Origin: Rhizobium favelukesii
GTDB lineage: Bacteria > Pseudomonadota > Alphaproteobacteria > Rhizobiales > Rhizobiaceae
Reading direction: 5' to 3'
DNA: 64,000 nt
Assembly (NCBI RefSeq): GCF_000577275.2
Contig: NZ_HG916852.1
Coordinates: forward strand, 1,181,001 to 1,245,000
Shown: positions 9,529 to 14,299 of the stretch, in pieces
How positions within the stretch are numbered: position 1 is the stretch's first letter
Layout of the letters: each line of letters begins with the position of its first letter
The notes under the pieces: model-generated
Databases searched by the model: none
The model's input: the letters and a program-made list of their open reading frames with translations, nothing else
What the model was told of the DNA's origin: nothing
Program-made: the position numbers and the translations under genes

Positions 9529-10494
9529 ATGCACATCACGTCGGCCAACCCTGCAGATGATCTCGAGTCCGTCGCCCGCAAGGGCGGCAAATTGCGGCGC
9601 ATGGCGGTGCGGATACCGACTTACATTGCGGATATCCGCGAAAATCCTGCCTGGCTGCCGATGTTCCTGCTGGCGCGAACAATACCGGCGCGCAAGGCGC
9701 ATTGGCTGACTGCACGACGCAGCAATGGCGCGATCGAGAATCTGCCGACGCTTTTCACGGGCGTGGATTATGGAAGCGCCGTCGCGGCGCTGAGGCGGGA
9801 TGGGATATTTCCCAACCTGACGCTCCCCGAAGCGATCACCCGTGAAATCGCCCGCTTTGCAAGCGCAACCCCATGCTTTGGCAATTTCGATCGGCAAATC
9901 GAGTTTCGGGCGTCGGATCATCGCGACGCAGAGCAGCAATGGGGACGGCCGATCCTGAGCGGCCACCACTTCGAGCGTGCCCTTGATTGCCCCGCGGTTC
10001 GTGCGGTCCAGCGCGATCCGGTCCTATCGGAAATCGCACGCTGCTATCTCGGTGCCCAAGCCCGCCTCATTACCACCCGCATCTGGTGGAGTTTTCCCAC
10101 GAGGGCCGGCGAGACCGACCGCAGCCTGGCGTCGCTGGACAAGTATCACTTCGATCTCGACGACTGGCGAATGCTGAAGTTCTTCTTCTATCTCGTCGAC
10201 GTCGACGAAGGCACTGGTCCGCATGTCTATGTCAGGGGTAGCCACAACAAGCGCCGCATCAAGCACCAATTGACCCTTGTGGTCGGCCATCCCGCGCATG
10301 AAATCCTGGATTTCTACGGGAAGGAGAGCGTGACGACGCTGACCGGCGCGGCAGGCTTCGGCTTCGTGGAAGATCCGTTCGGTTTTCATATGGGCACGGT
10401 CGCCAAGACGAAGCCGCGCCTGATGATGGAGGTGGGCTTTGGTGTTTCCAAGCCGTCGCGCCGCCGCTTCCACGGCGAGCCGGTGCTACGGTGA
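9529..10494 (+). CDS. PhyH-like Fe(II)/2-oxoglutarate dioxygenase
   Basis: 321 residues. The ATG at 9529 follows GAAAGGA; an upstream in-frame start at 9424 has no support. The proposed facial triad is H207 and D209 (YHFDLDDW) and distal H287 (PFGFHMG). The segment FFFYLVDVDEGTGPHVYVRGSH is typical of the phytanoyl-CoA dioxygenase family. It is a soluble oxygenase that would hydroxylate an organic substrate using 2-oxoglutarate and O2. The substrate is unknown. There is no operon partner; a palindromic repeat follows. Confidence 0.8.
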   Translation: MHITSANPADDLESVARKGGKLRRMAVRIPTYIADIRENPAWLPMFLLARTIPARKAHWLTARRSNGAIENLPTLFTGVDYGSAVAALRRDGIFPNLTLPEAITREIARFASATPCFGNFDRQIEFRASDHRDAEQQWGRPILSGHHFERALDCPAVRAVQRDPVLSEIARCYLGAQARLITTRIWWSFPTRAGETDRSLASLDKYHFDLDDWRMLKFFFYLVDVDEGTGPHVYVRGSHNKRRIKHQLTLVVGHPAHEILDFYGKESVTTLTGAAGFGFVEDPFGFHMGTVAKTKPRLMMEVGFGVSKPSRRRFHGEPVLR

Positions 10495-10614: not shown

Positions 10615-11193
10615 TCAGGCCGCTTTCGGCTGGTGCTCGGCACCGAACATCAGCACGTACTGGTCCAGTTCGTCGCCGGCATGTCCAAGCGCGCGGTAGA
10701 TTTCCGCCGCAAAGGTCATCGGTGCCGATCCGGCCGCCGTCACCAGCTTTCCGTCACGCACGGCCTGCGGGATATCCTTGTAACGAGAGTGGCCGGCGTA
10801 GCCGGGCGCACCTGCGATAAAATTGGCGGCATTGCTGGTATGGTCGATGGCATTCAGCGCTCCTGCGCGGGCAAGGGCCAGCGTTGCGCCGCAAATCCCG
10901 GCGACGAGCTTGTCGTGGGCGATGAAGTCGTCGATCACCTGTTTGAGGTCAGGCGCCTTCTCCGTTTCCCAGATCGTTCCGCCGCAGAGCACGAGGCCGT
11001 CGAAGGCGTTGGCATGCAGGTTTTCAGCCGCGGTATCGGCCGCGACGCGCATGCTGCCCATCGAGCGCACTTCCTCGCCTTCGGGCGTTGCAATCACCAC
11101 GTCGAAGCCGAAGTAGGAGCGTGCGGAGGCCGTCAGTTGCGCGACCTCCCAGTCGGCGAATCCGTCGGTCAGCACGATTGCAAGTCGGGTCAT
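10615..11193 (-). CDS. DJ-1/PfpI family protein
   Basis: 192 residues. The ATG at 11193 follows GGAGA. It shows the class I glutamine-amidotransferase-like fold: LAIVLTDGFADWEVA at the start and nucleophile elbow AGICGATLALA with C101. Family members act as deglycases, chaperones or stress proteins; which applies here cannot be told. It lies 39 bases downstream of the GNAT gene on the same strand and may be co-transcribed with it, which would put it under the leader-peptide element upstream. Confidence 0.88.
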   Translation of the reverse strand: MTRLAIVLTDGFADWEVAQLTASARSYFGFDVVIATPEGEEVRSMGSMRVAADTAAENLHANAFDGLVLCGGTIWETEKAPDLKQVIDDFIAHDKLVAGICGATLALARAGALNAIDHTSNAANFIAGAPGYAGHSRYKDIPQAVRDGKLVTAAGSAPMTFAAEIYRALGHAGDELDQYVLMFGAEHQPKAA

Positions 11194-11232
11194 CGGTTTC
11201 TCCAATGAAAGAACGCAAGGGGCCAATGCCGC

Positions 11233-11727
11233 TCATGCTAAAGCCTGCATATAGCGCATGCCAGTGACCGGGCGAGGCACGAAGTCCATGTTCTCGTAGA
11301 AGCGATGGGCCTGCACGTTGCCGGTGGCGGCGCTGACCGAGAGATAGCCGCAGCCGGCGCTGCGAGCCGTGTCGCGGGCGCGGTTGACGAGATGCTGGCC
11401 GACGCCGTGGCCGCGATGGCCGTCGCGCACGAAGAGATGGTGCAGATCCATGCCGCGCGCACCGTCCTGCGCCCTGTAGAGCGGCACGAGGATCGCGTAG
11501 CCGATCAGGCCTTCGCCGGTCTCGGCAACGAGGGCGCTGATCCACGGCACAGGGCCGAAGAGGTCGCGCTCGAGCTGCTCCTGGCTCGAGGCGGAAGCAT
11601 CGCCGTGGTGCTTGGCGAGCAGGGCGATCATTTCGGTGAGTTCGGGCAGATCGCGCGGCTTGGCGGCGCGGATATTGATCACCGGCGGGCGGATCAATGA
11701 GACTTCGCTGTCTTCGATTTCAACCAT
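11233..11727 (-). CDS. GNAT-family N-acetyltransferase
   Basis: 164 residues. The acetyl-CoA binding motif A is clear (LFVRDGHRGHGVGQHLV), followed by FYENMDFVPRP. Acetyl-CoA-dependent transfer to an amine is expected; the substrate is unknown. The gene is preceded by 150 bases that hold a 16-codon aromatic-rich reading frame and a terminator hairpin, suggesting control by transcription attenuation. The start at 11727 has AAAGGACGCGAAGACC upstream. Confidence 0.9.
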   Translation of the reverse strand: MVEIEDSEVSLIRPPVINIRAAKPRDLPELTEMIALLAKHHGDASASSQEQLERDLFGPVPWISALVAETGEGLIGYAILVPLYRAQDGARGMDLHHLFVRDGHRGHGVGQHLVNRARDTARSAGCGYLSVSAATGNVQAHRFYENMDFVPRPVTGMRYMQALA

Positions 11728-11774
11728 GGTCTTCGCGTCCTTTGTGGTTTTCTGCCGTCAGGACGCTGCCAATA

Positions 11775-11805
11775 CAACAAAGCCGCCTGACGGCGGCTTG
11801 TTGAC
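11775..11805 (-). terminator. Intrinsic terminator of the proposed attenuator upstream of the GNAT gene
   Basis: On the minus strand AAGCCGCC-GTCA-GGCGGCTT forms a perfect 8-bp stem. It extends with one bulge (CAACA / TGTTG) to about 12 bp and runs into TTTGTTGTATT. It ends about 50 bases before the GNAT start. A second copy of GGCGGCT just after the leader stop (within 11818-11828) can pair with the 5' arm instead, so terminator and antiterminator are mutually exclusive. Confidence 0.6.
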
Positions 11806-11828
11806 AATATGATCTGTCCAGCCGCCCC

Positions 11829-11879
11829 TTACAGGTACAGCCAAAAATACGTGCTGGTGATGTGCGCGTTCTTGATCAT
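11829..11879 (-). CDS. Leader peptide of 16 residues (MIKNAHITSTYFWLYL)
   Basis: The ATG is at 11879 and TAA at 11831-11829. The C-terminal codons are Tyr-Phe-Trp-Leu-Tyr-Leu, an aromatic cluster of the kind used as a ribosome-stalling or starvation sensor. There is no ribosome site. Instead the ATG lies about 7 bases after a -10-like GATCTA, so the transcript would be leaderless, as is known for trpL of Sinorhizobium. The stop codon abuts the GGGGCGGCTGG segment that competes with the terminator. Identity as a leader peptide is inferred from this architecture. Confidence 0.55.
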   Translation of the reverse strand: MIKNAHITSTYFWLYL

Positions 11880-11886
11880 GCGTCGA

Positions 11887-11915
11887 TAGATCGTCCAGAA
11901 CGCGCCGTTTGTCAA
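11887..11915 (-). promoter_or_regulatory. Predicted promoter of the leader/GNAT transcript
   Basis: TTGACA at 11915-11910 is followed after 17 bases by GATCTA at 11892-11887. Transcription would start at or next to the ATG of the leader peptide. Confidence 0.5.
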
Positions 11916-12054: not shown

Positions 12055-12070
12055 CTAAGTGGATGAAGCC

Positions 12071-12343
12071 ATGTCGCACACCACGCACCACAAGAAAAAG
12101 CTGATGGCCCGCGTCAGCCGCCTGAAAGGCCAGCTGGAGGCCGTCGAGCGAGCCCTGGAGGCAGAGCGGCCCTGCGGGGAGATTTTGCAGCTGCTTGCCT
12201 CCATACGCGGTGCGCTGAACGGCTTGACCGGGGAGGTGTTGGACGATCATCTCCACGAGCATGTCCTGCATGCCGCGGATGAGAAAGCCCGGACGGAAGC
12301 GGTCGAGGAAATATCCGAAGTCCTGCGGACCTACATTCGCTGA
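12071..12343 (+). CDS. dmeR: RcnR/CsoR-family Ni/Co-responsive repressor
   Basis: 90 residues counted from the ATG at 12071; a GTG at 12059 is the alternative. All RcnR-type metal ligands are in place: H3, C35, H60 and H64. It is an all-helical repressor that releases DNA on binding Ni(II) or Co(II). A matching operator lies immediately upstream and the CDF exporter gene 24 bases downstream. This is the dmeR-dmeF arrangement described in rhizobia. Confidence 0.88.
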   Translation: MSHTTHHKKKLMARVSRLKGQLEAVERALEAERPCGEILQLLASIRGALNGLTGEVLDDHLHEHVLHAADEKARTEAVEEISEVLRTYIR

Positions 12344-12367
12344 GAAAACCGACATGAGGAGCGTGCA

Positions 12368-13342
12368 ATGACTGCACAGACGGAAACACTTAAGCACGAC
12401 CACGTTTTCCTGGGCGCGGACCACGACCGCAACGCCCGCCGTGTCTGGTTCGTCATCGCCCTGACCGCCGTCATGATGGTGGTCGAGATCGGCGCCGGAA
12501 CGTATTACGGTTCGATGGCGCTGGTGGCCGATGGCTGGCATATGTCGACCCATGCCAGCGCTCTGCTGATCTCTGCGGTTGCCTACCGCTATGCGCGCCG
12601 GCAGGCGCACAATCCCCGCTTCACCTTCGGCACCGGCAAGCTCGGCGACCTCGCAGGCTTCGCCAGCGCCATCATCCTGGCGCTGATTGCGCTCTTGATG
12701 GCCTGGGAGAGCTTTCTGCGCATCACCCATCCCGTACCGATCAGCTTCGAGCAGGCGATCGGCGTCGCTGTCGTCGGCCTGCTGGTCAATCTGGCCAGCG
12801 CCTGGCTCCTAAAGGACGGCCATCACGGCCACAGCCACGGTCATTCCCACCATCACCACCACGAGCACGGCGATCATGCCCATCATGGCGACCATGCCCG
12901 TTCTGCACATGCCTCCGACAACAACATGCGTGCGGCCTATGTCCATGTCATTGCCGATGCGCTGACGTCGGTGCTCGCCATTGCCGCACTGTTGCTCGGC
13001 AGTCTTTATGGCTGGCTCTGGCTCGACCCGCTAATGGGCATCGTCGGCGGCCTGATCATTGCCCAATGGTCCTGGGGCCTGATCACGTCGTCGGGCCGCG
13101 TGCTGCTCGACGTTGTGCCGCGGGAGGTGGATCTGCAGCATGAGATTCGTTCGGCGCTGGAAACGGGTGGCGAGCGGATCACCGATCTTCACGTCTGGCA
13201 GGTCGGACCTGGCCATCATGCCGCGATCGTCGCACTCGTCGCGCCGCAGCCCGAAAGCCCGGCCTTCTACAAGGCGAAGCTCGAGCCTCTTGCAGGTCTT
13301 TCGCACGTCACGGTCGAGGTCTCAAAGTCAGCGGCCGCTTGA
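12368..13342 (+). CDS. dmeF: Cation diffusion facilitator, Co/Ni exporter DmeF
   Basis: 324 residues, six hydrophobic segments. ALVADGWHMSTHA near residue 55 and VHVIADALTSV near 195 carry the transport-site His/Asp residues. Between the fourth and fifth helices is a very histidine-rich loop (residues ~152-178), typical of DmeF. It extrudes divalent metal, probably Co and Ni, across the inner membrane in exchange for protons. It is co-transcribed with dmeR. Confidence 0.92.
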   Translation: MTAQTETLKHDHVFLGADHDRNARRVWFVIALTAVMMVVEIGAGTYYGSMALVADGWHMSTHASALLISAVAYRYARRQAHNPRFTFGTGKLGDLAGFASAIILALIALLMAWESFLRITHPVPISFEQAIGVAVVGLLVNLASAWLLKDGHHGHSHGHSHHHHHEHGDHAHHGDHARSAHASDNNMRAAYVHVIADALTSVLAIAALLLGSLYGWLWLDPLMGIVGGLIIAQWSWGLITSSGRVLLDVVPREVDLQHEIRSALETGGERITDLHVWQVGPGHHAAIVALVAPQPESPAFYKAKLEPLAGLSHVTVEVSKSAAA

Positions 13343-13408: not shown

Positions 13409-14299
13409 ATGCGCGGCTTTTCCATCCGTCGCCGGACACTTCTTGGTTCGGCACTGCTTTCGCCCGCCTTGCTCCTTCCGCGTGTTGCGCGGACGGAAGA
13501 CAGTGATGATGAAATCAATCGGCGGATAGGTGCACTCGAAAAGGCGATCGGTGGTCGTATTGGTGTATCCGCCATCGACACCCAGACCAACATTTCGTTC
13601 GGCTATCGCGAAACCGAGCGCTTTCCTCTCAGCAGCACGTTCAAGGTCCTGGCCGCGGGCCTTGTGCTTGCGCGGGTAGACAAGGGGCAGGAGACGCTCG
13701 AGAGGCGTGTCGTCTACGACCAGGCCAAGCTCGTCACCTATTCGCCCGAGACGGAAAAGCACGTCGGCGGCGAGGGCATGAGCCTCAGTGAACTCTGCGC
13801 AGCGGCGATCACGCTGAGCGACAATACGGCCGGCAACCTGCTGCTGGAAAGCTTCGGCGGCCCTCCCGAGCTCACCAAATGGCTGCGTACGCTGGGCGAC
13901 CGTTCGACAAGGCTCGACCGCTGGGAAACGGCACTGAACGAAGCCAAGGACGGCGACCCGCAGGACACGACGACGCCCGATGCAATGGTCGACACGCTCG
14001 GCAACCTGGCGCTTGGCTCGGCGCTATCGGAGCCCTCGCGCGACAAGCTGACGGAATGGATGGTGGCGAATACGACGGGTGGCGCGCGCCTGCGCGCCGG
14101 CCTTCCGGGCGCCTGGAGGATCGGCGACAAGACCGGCACCGGAAACAACGGCAGCGCCGCCGATATCGCCATCGTCTGGCCGCCCGGGCATGGCGCGATC
14201 CTCGTTGCAGCTTATGTGACGCAGGCCAAGGCGCCATTGTCGGAGATCAACCCGGTCTTCGCCGAGGTTGGCAGGATCGTGGCCGATATGGTCGGATAA
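13409..14299 (+). CDS. Class A beta-lactamase with Tat-type signal
   Basis: 296 residues. All class A motifs are present: S76-T-F-K79, S137-D-N139, the general-base glutamate E173 in RWETALNEA, and K241-T-G. It hydrolyses beta-lactams in the periplasm. The signal has consecutive arginines ahead of a hydrophobic stretch (SIRRRTLLGSALLSPALLL), consistent with twin-arginine export. The start follows AGAGGAC. No LysR/AmpR regulator adjoins it. Substrate range cannot be read from sequence. Confidence 0.92.
   Translation: MRGFSIRRRTLLGSALLSPALLLPRVARTEDSDDEINRRIGALEKAIGGRIGVSAIDTQTNISFGYRETERFPLSSTFKVLAAGLVLARVDKGQETLERRVVYDQAKLVTYSPETEKHVGGEGMSLSELCAAAITLSDNTAGNLLLESFGGPPELTKWLRTLGDRSTRLDRWETALNEAKDGDPQDTTTPDAMVDTLGNLALGSALSEPSRDKLTEWMVANTTGGARLRAGLPGAWRIGDKTGTGNNGSAADIAIVWPPGHGAILVAAYVTQAKAPLSEINPVFAEVGRIVADMVG

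Follow-up and report, generated by a model that had tools for sequence, protein, structure and literature searches.

Aromatic codons in a short leader are known to control a biosynthetic or synthetase gene in the pheST and pheA attenuators of E. coli and in the aroR leader of Corynebacterium glutamicum. These systems belong to other lineages and are not known to have a GNAT acetyltransferase as a target. Attenuators of amino acid and aminoacyl-tRNA genes have reportedly been predicted by Vitreschak (2004) and Lopatovskaya (2010), the studies in which earlier predictions of alphaproteobacterial tyrS, trpS or aro attenuators are most likely to be found.

The trpE(G) attenuator of Sinorhizobium meliloti, rnTrpL/peTrpL, is leaderless and translated (PMC10117765; see also PMC7298713). 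It is also reported to act in trans. The element analysed here resembles it in that a short ORF, leaderless by prediction, is part of a rhizobial transcription attenuator. However, in rnTrpL/peTrpL a peptide of 14 amino acids precedes trpE, whereas here Tyr, Phe and Trp occur once each, supplemented by Tyr15, upstream of a GNAT gene. With one Trp codon and a GNAT rather than trpE(G) downstream, the element is not a member of the peTrpL/trpL family proper. It further differs by a pairing of the start codon with a loop and by an anti-Shine-Dalgarno lock, neither of which is described for rnTrpL/peTrpL in the covered part of PMC10117765.

In Caulobacter crescentus, ribosome profiling revealed a translated leader coding sequence before trpS (PMC4117421), which may be related to the trpS leaders L191, L197 and L199 described below; on structure, codon logic and any connection with other genes the covered part of that source is silent. 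Predicted uORF attenuators include uORFC-8-2 upstream of cysS in Rhodobacterales and uORFC-13-1 upstream of aroF in Acholeplasma (PMC8632094). They likewise precede genes for an aminoacyl-tRNA synthetase and a DAHP synthase, but contain Cys or Phe codons and occur in other lineages. Moreover, for a DUF1127 gene of Sinorhizobium meliloti an attenuator that depends on a uORF has been proposed to sense translation inhibition (PMC12218461). Within the covered portions of the open-access literature, a scope that lies outside Vitreschak 2004 and Lopatovskaya 2010, no report of this leader before a GNAT gene was found, and the same scope (including PMC1273637, PMC4833913 and PMC2965389) yielded no report of tyrS or tyrA leaders in Hyphomicrobiales.

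Architecture and conservation of the leader

The promoter, leader ORF and hairpins that an earlier note had described on the minus strand of the window, i.e. the whole 64-kb stretch of DNA analysed, are present, and both the coordinates and the base pairings given there are right. A -35 box, TTGACA (11910..11915), was read directly and is conserved among GNAT loci. It is separated by a 17-nt spacer from the -10 box GATCTA (11887..11892), located 7 nt before the leader ATG. Of the 111 GNAT loci, 110 have the first base of TTGAC 34-37 nt 5' of the leader start codon. Across 113 aligned members the consensus at this position is TTGACA, and the bases 24 and 25 nt after its first base are A in 85% and T in 65%, respectively. 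Immediately 5' of the leader ATG, 97% of the 75 GNAT members and 92% of 39 others have a C, which, in combination with the promoter spacing, fits a leaderless start with the A of the ATG as +1. At sequence level this supports the leaderless leader peptide of the earlier note, with a predicted transcription start at 11879. Mapped leaderless starts in S. meliloti all begin with AUG, as stated in the covered part of PMC3616915. The tyrS and hydrolase leaders L143, L150-L152, L181, L183 and L219, which belong to the sister elements treated below, carry -35 boxes of the TTGCC- or TTGCA-type instead of TTGACA.

The leader ORF MIKNAHITSTYFWLYL comprises 16 codons (11829..11879, minus strand) and reads ATG ATC AAG AAC GCG CAC ATC ACC AGC ACG TAT TTT TGG CTG TAC CTG TAA. 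Its regulatory codons are Tyr11, Phe12 and Trp13 (TAT TTT TGG), followed by Tyr15. Directly 3' of the stop codon lies GGGGCGGCTGG with segment 1, GGCGGCU (11820..11826), the partner of segment 2, AGCCGCC (11792..11798). According to the folding model, segment 2 serves both as 3' arm of the antiterminator and as 5' arm of the terminator; its GCCGCC never varies in the GNAT-leader alignments. The terminator hairpin, AACAAGCCGCC-GTCA-GGCGGCTTTGTT with a weak U tract (11775..11803), was recognized by consensus scan, alignment and folding. Its arms, AAGCCGCC-GTCA-GGCGGCTT (11799-11780 including the loop), are situated 5' of the regulated gene, which encodes a GNAT acetyltransferase of 164 residues with an SSAT-like fold (11233..11727, minus strand; PF00583, 6.8e-15). 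In the consensus scan the attenuator terminator is one of 3 sites in 5 kb, compared to a mean of 4.0 in shuffled sequences; since this is not significant by itself, the case for an attenuator rests on conservation. The consensus scan detected no sigma-70 promoter in the same 5 kb, and the curated Rfam models (T-box, riboswitch and others) gave 0 matches at gathering score in the whole 64-kb window.

Orthologues of the GNAT were collected by a whole-genome search and from named records, of which the best 80 of 233 were used (nearest Rhizobium tibeticum, 99%). The resulting 111 loci comprise L001, the 30 best loci of the genome search and these best 80 of 233 relatives, with some genomes represented twice. 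In all 111 loci the leader is in frame, with a length of 16 or 17 codons. A first covariance model, built from 28 leaders, was run on 297 genomes of the family to which the window belongs (Rhizobiaceae, judging by named relatives). An orthologue at E<=1e-35 occurs in 68 of them, and every one of these carries the element directly upstream of the GNAT gene. Sequences from 22 of these had contributed to the model, while the other 46 are independent of it and possess the element without exception. Weak model matches in three other genomes (1.7e-4 to 0.008) proved not to be members on inspection.

Codon usage was counted in 81 distinct GNAT-leader DNAs from 129 loci. The frame is kept in all of them, and the Tyr position is occupied by Tyr in 81/81, the Phe position by Phe in 80/81 and the Trp position by Trp in 76/81. 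The remaining five carry WYF (L166-L168), WFYY (L158) or no Trp (L159). The penultimate codon is Tyr in 55, Phe in 22 and another residue in 4, and the stop is TAA in 60 and TAG in 21. The N-terminal half differs among the leaders, with the exception of codon 2, which is ATC in 78/81. Synonymous changes and one-codon length changes occur with the aromatic triad kept, and 56 of 57 distinct GNAT leader peptides contain all three aromatics, mostly as one run of three. Frame and hairpins are conserved in relatives, an outcome in favour of the earlier note, which had named their absence as refuting, and the codon-level conservation that it had proposed to test in the frame is evident.

A preference at Phe12 points in the same direction: TTT is used in 80/80 distinct GNAT leaders, vs a TTT share of 0.23 among the Phe codons of 26 long ORFs of the window. 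This represents a codon-level constraint which the protein sequence does not explain, and it may perhaps reflect slow wobble decoding or the need for an unstructured U-rich stretch. Across the leaders, the run that lies at 11849-11841 in the window has mostly TAT as first Tyr and the minor codon TTT as Phe.

Downstream of the GNAT gene the window contains a DJ-1/PfpI family gene (10615..11226, minus strand; PF01965, 2e-25), which the earlier note had considered as a further target. It is optional: 44 of 111 loci have it next to the GNAT gene, whereas it was not detected at the other 67, of which two offer less than 1 kb of downstream DNA. It does not qualify as a constant target.

Sister elements and the amino acids probably sensed

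The first model also matched sites before tyrS, representing a second copy of the element in four genomes of the family. Two of these copies (L150, L151) precede an intact and one (L152) a broken tyrS, and the fourth (L153) has no tyrS. The search with a second model, R2, which included tyrS-site sequences, covered 397 genomes at the level of the order and 289 at the level of the class. All 107 rows of the order search and 32 of the 37 rows of the class search were inspected, the five class-search rows outside this inspection lying in G723, G727, G735, G908 and G940 (E 0.003-0.01). Eighty-three loci, among them L200-L214 and the weak matches L235-L247 from the window's own genome, were screened by script for ORFs of 12-30 codons with close aromatics. 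The 26 loci flagged were read by eye and yielded three more tyrS leaders with confirmed gene (L285, L291, L302). Owing to strict filters and sampled taxa the member counts given below are lower bounds, and gene identities derive from profile scans of representatives. Remaining weak model matches are terminators of other genes.

Leaders with YY, YFYY, YYY or YF are found before tyrS at 17 loci, and YY leaders before a prephenate-dehydrogenase-like 'tyrA' at nine loci, for which NCBIfam models stay below their cut-offs and Pfam PDH_N exceeds its cut-off in the two genes scanned. Three trpS loci (L191, L197, L199) possess two WW leaders and one FYW leader, and four loci of class I DAHP synthase show, for example, YFWYF. 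Five loci of an isochorismatase-domain hydrolase (L181, L183, L186, L219, L225) carry FYW or YW plus F, and four loci of a second, distant GNAT, about 30% identical to the first GNAT in two comparisons, carry WYF. The hydrolases with their FYW/YW leaders constitute a second enigmatic target class of the switch.

The codons follow the gene. Trp is absent from all 21 distinct tyrS and tyrA-like leader peptides, as well as from three found later (24 in total), and present in 16/16 distinct peptides of trpS (3/3), DAHP synthase (4/4), hydrolase (5/5) and second-GNAT (4/4) loci. The exact Fisher value for 0/21 vs 16/16 is 7.8e-11, a figure that ignores kinship and includes members that trained R2. 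All four DAHP synthase leaders contain the three aromatics. DAHP synthase opens the common aromatic pathway, so that an all-aromatic leader is logical there, and the GNAT leader falls into the same codon class. For the relatives before tyrS, tyrA-like, trpS and DAHP synthase genes, the presumed target functions in metabolizing the amino acid concerned or in charging its tRNA. A single architecture recurs in Alphaproteobacteria, where it precedes at least six gene families and has its codons rewritten for each gene. The aromatic sensing put forward in the earlier note is corroborated by the conserved triad and the gene-matched codons. Its suggestion that the element serves something other than biosynthesis control may hold for the GNAT, but the sister targets are mostly aromatic biosynthesis or aminoacyl-tRNA synthetase genes.

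By reading, L153, L177 (G669) and L230 (G466) appear to be decayed tyrS leaders in which the gene is lost or the ORF decayed, and at L195 (G942:C6:669138-669260) a leader MENTKIHINAYFTSSK precedes an ORF of 109 residues that is S4-like by eye. The 13 weak model matches in the genome of the window (L235-L247) include no second element that could be recognized. The stretches of 400-500 nt preceding the tyrS, trpS and class II DAHP synthase genes of this genome contain no leader-like ORF; a 9-codon ORF, MGFYGISLN, is located 259 nt before the DAHP synthase gene.

Taken as a whole, the element can with good probability be described as a ribosome-mediated attenuator that senses charged tRNA-Tyr, tRNA-Phe and tRNA-Trp and controls the GNAT gene. 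This description is based on observed conservation of the parts, on codon identity matched to gene function and on pair-specific complementarities, and the assignment as an aromatic-codon attenuator is made with high confidence. Two further readings of the stalled ribosome are considerably less probable. In the first, any slowing of the leader ribosome, for example by tetracycline, chloramphenicol or general starvation, would induce the gene, in the manner suggested for the uORF of the DUF1127 gene in S. meliloti; because ribosome position sets the hairpins, such generic slowing could act too. However, the regulatory codons are exactly the three aromatics and differ by downstream gene, and the strict use of TTT at Phe12 departs from the habit of the window ORFs, which makes a general sensor of translation efficiency very unlikely.

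In the second, a drug or metabolite bound in the ribosomal tunnel would arrest the peptide at Tyr-Phe-Trp and thereby induce a resistance acetyltransferase. The leader peptide is conserved only in its C-terminal part, a trait known from arrest peptides, and GNATs include antibiotic acetyltransferases, aminoglycoside acetyltransferases being among the many folds similar to this GNAT. Yet the order of the aromatic residues is permuted (YFW, WYF, WFYY) and their neighbours vary (L158, L166-L168 and the second GNATs), so that composition rather than an exact arrest sequence is kept. In addition, the codons of the sister elements match the genes that follow them (tyrS, tyrA-like, trpS and DAHP synthase), and no NCBIfam model, resistance families included, matches the GNAT at cut-off. 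The ribosome-stalling antibiotic, one of the options of the earlier note, is therefore disfavoured and retains only a very small probability.

Pairings and the proposed switch

Three putative parts suggested by the sequences extend the ribosome-mediated attenuator beyond the earlier note: a pairing of the start codon with the antiterminator loop, a pairing of the terminator loop with a downstream segment 4, and a hidden Shine-Dalgarno region of the GNAT gene. The first, P1, was proposed by RNAalifold on the mixed alignment as a pairing of the 5' ATGATC with GATCAT between segments 1 and 2. In the window it connects AUGAUC, i.e. the start codon and codon 2 (11874..11879), with GAUCAU in the antiterminator loop (11809..11814), the latter being backed by alignment fold and permutation test. 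The second links GCCGUCAGG (11786..11794), which spans the terminator loop, with its complement, segment 4 (CCUGACGGC, 11754..11762). The third involves an anti-Shine-Dalgarno GCGUCCU (11760..11766), which overlaps segment 4, and segment 5, AGGACGC (11735..11741), in the Shine-Dalgarno region of the GNAT gene. All of these lie on the minus strand and are backed by permutation tests, complemented by folding for segment 5.

For P1 the duplex energy of a member's own strands is -7.66 vs -6.59 (sd 0.14) for permuted partners, a difference reached in 0/5000 permutations of 102 distinct members. It persists without the 57 close GNAT representatives (-8.48 vs -6.32, 0/5000, n=51), whereas control stretches of the same RNAs, nt 13-24 and 25-36, gave 4114/5000 and 4051/5000. 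In the GNAT group alone, where ATGATC/GATCAT is nearly invariant, the value is 1291/5000. Compensatory versions occur in L159, L160, L161, L179, L181, L184, L188, L189, L199 and L217, for example ATGATCGTCCC/GGGACGATTAT (L189), TGAAATATC/GATATTTCA (L199), TGAACGC/GCGTTCA (L184) and ATGACGAC/GTCGTCAT (L181). At least 6 bp can form in 80 of 113 members, compared to an average share of 0.56 after permutation. For members that do not belong to the first GNAT class the figures are 20/38 and 0.31, respectively; the other 18, all four DAHP synthase leaders among them, have fewer pairs.

The two distal pairings are equally specific to their own RNA. Loop and segment 4 reach a duplex energy of -21.98 vs -18.92 (sd 0.23) for permuted partners (0/5000, n=106), and anti-Shine-Dalgarno and Shine-Dalgarno -13.78 vs -10.72 (sd 0.24; 0/5000, n=110). 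In the GNAT group alone both again yield 0/5000 (n=70 and 72, respectively). A control pairing of the terminator loop with the Shine-Dalgarno gave 957/5000, and a borderline 245/5000 in the GNAT-only set. Compensatory stems between anti-Shine-Dalgarno and Shine-Dalgarno include CTTTCCC/GGGAAAG, GCATCC/GGATGC and ACGTCCC/GGGACGT; some '4:5' helices picked by script in the compensatory listing are spurious A/T runs. The five hydrolase members stand outside the P1 permutation test and entered the segment-4 and Shine-Dalgarno tests with a wrongly placed terminator, so that they are counted correctly only in the tally of P1 helices of at least 6 bp (n=113). L197, which has no hairpin by the rule used, is outside the hairpin tests.

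Clear covariation of the two alternative hairpins, which the earlier note had proposed to test in an alignment, did not emerge. The 1:2 and 2:3 helices are nearly invariant, too much so for pair-specific testing; the 1:2 helix gave 180/5000 in the GNAT group alone, without clear covariation. Six terminator pairs never vary among 39 GNAT leaders and carry little covariation information, and RNAalifold on the GNAT alignment proposed little besides the terminator; in a single pair both partners had changed.

That the two hairpins exclude each other is supported by the folding model, in which terminator and antiterminator share segment 2 and a ribosome at the stop codon blocks the antiterminator. 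As long as segment 3 has not been transcribed, the 1:2 helix of the window RNA has a probability of 1.0 when a ribosome is stalled at Trp13 or absent, and of 0.0 when one covers the stop region. The nascent leader without ribosome folds into P1 (0.96) and the terminator (1.0). As soon as segment 3 is available, the terminator prevails at equilibrium whichever stalled state of the nascent leader is considered, and the ON form must accordingly be a kinetic state, as in classical attenuators. In a longer RNA, a stall at Trp13 leaves the terminator at 0.94 with the Shine-Dalgarno paired, and a stall at Tyr11 brings the 1:2 helix to 0.99, the Shine-Dalgarno still being paired. The ON fold of the Trp13 stall (1:2 plus loop with segment 4) amounts to -41.1 kcal/mol, or -37.5 kcal/mol with the Shine-Dalgarno forced open, and the OFF fold (terminator plus anti-Shine-Dalgarno stem) to -44.8 kcal/mol. 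Before the Shine-Dalgarno is made, both sides lie within about 2 kcal/mol. Opening of the Shine-Dalgarno is suggested by complementarity and does not follow from the folding energies.

From these parts we infer the following scheme, from transcription start and termination to ribosome stalling, the sense in which each step switches and the function of the start-codon pairing; its details are proposed with moderate confidence. Transcription would begin at the A of the leader ATG, and a 70S ribosome would initiate on the bare 5' AUG. With all three tRNAs charged, the ribosome would proceed to the stop codon and cover segment 1, so that segments 2 and 3 pair and RNA polymerase terminates. In transcripts that leak through, the GNAT Shine-Dalgarno would be paired with the anti-Shine-Dalgarno segment, a stem that can be read as a second lock compensating for the weak U tract. 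Should any aromatic tRNA be short, the ribosome would halt at Tyr11, Phe12 or Trp13 and leave segment 1 free to capture segment 2. The terminator would then not form, and the loop strand would be available to segment 4, whose pairing would compete with the anti-Shine-Dalgarno and favour GNAT translation. If no ribosome is loaded, AUGAUC would pair with GAUCAU and favour the terminator, making OFF the default of the untranslated leader. As far as the sequences indicate, the switch very probably turns on the GNAT gene when aromatic amino acids run short.

The same pairings bear on an action of the terminated leader RNA or its peptide in trans, with control of the GNAT in cis being secondary. With a length of about 105 nt and a peptide of 16 amino acids, the terminated RNA would resemble rnTrpL as portrayed in the covered part of PMC10117765. 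In contrast, the peptide varies in its N-terminal half, and the complementarity between anti-Shine-Dalgarno and Shine-Dalgarno ties the element in cis to the downstream gene, so that a primary role in trans is slightly less probable even than antibiotic arrest. A conserved DNA or transcription-factor site with an ORF by chance would fit TATTTTTGG being nearly invariant as DNA in the GNAT group, but is practically dismissed by the frame that is always kept, the synonymous and reordered aromatic codons, the interchange of TAA and TAG, the compensatory RNA pairs and the different leader DNA with matching codons before tyrS, tyrA-like and trpS genes.

The acetyltransferase in the probable aromatic response

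The feature is real and very probably represents ribosome-mediated attenuation with an unexpected target. The structure model of the GNAT has a pLDDT of 88.8, and the nearest solved folds in a structure search are spermidine/spermine and thialysine acetyltransferases as well as 2fe7. In fold and sequence the protein resembles SSAT-type amine acetyltransferases, though a shared fold says nothing of the substrate. No clue to the function of the GNAT came from the genes around the DAHP synthase, hydrolase and second-GNAT loci. Divergent from the attenuator promoter, the window carries genes for a metal-sensing repressor (PF02583) and for Co/Ni efflux of the DmeF type (12059-13342). They are followed by a class A beta-lactamase gene at 13409-14299 (NCBIfam bla_class_A above cut-off), and an ORF of 321 residues at 9529-10494 has no Pfam or NCBIfam match at E 0.001.

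The role of the acetyltransferase can be assigned only with low confidence. It is conceivable, though rather doubtful, that the switches reading all three aromatics form a response to shikimate blockage. A shortage of aromatic tRNAs would report a poisoned or stalled pathway and drive a small-amine acetyltransferase, elsewhere the hydrolase, that modifies the inhibitor or a toxic intermediate where the DAHP synthase lacks the switch; the pairing of the leaderless start codon with the antiterminator loop would be the gate that couples ribosome loading to attenuation.

This pairing, for which no description exists in the covered parts of the literature, constitutes a testable feature. Furthermore, the elements provide a natural series in which leader codons, leaderless initiation and the two downstream locks can be tested together. 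Finally, strong comparative evidence places the acetyltransferase in the response to aromatic amino acids, which gives a handle on its substrate.
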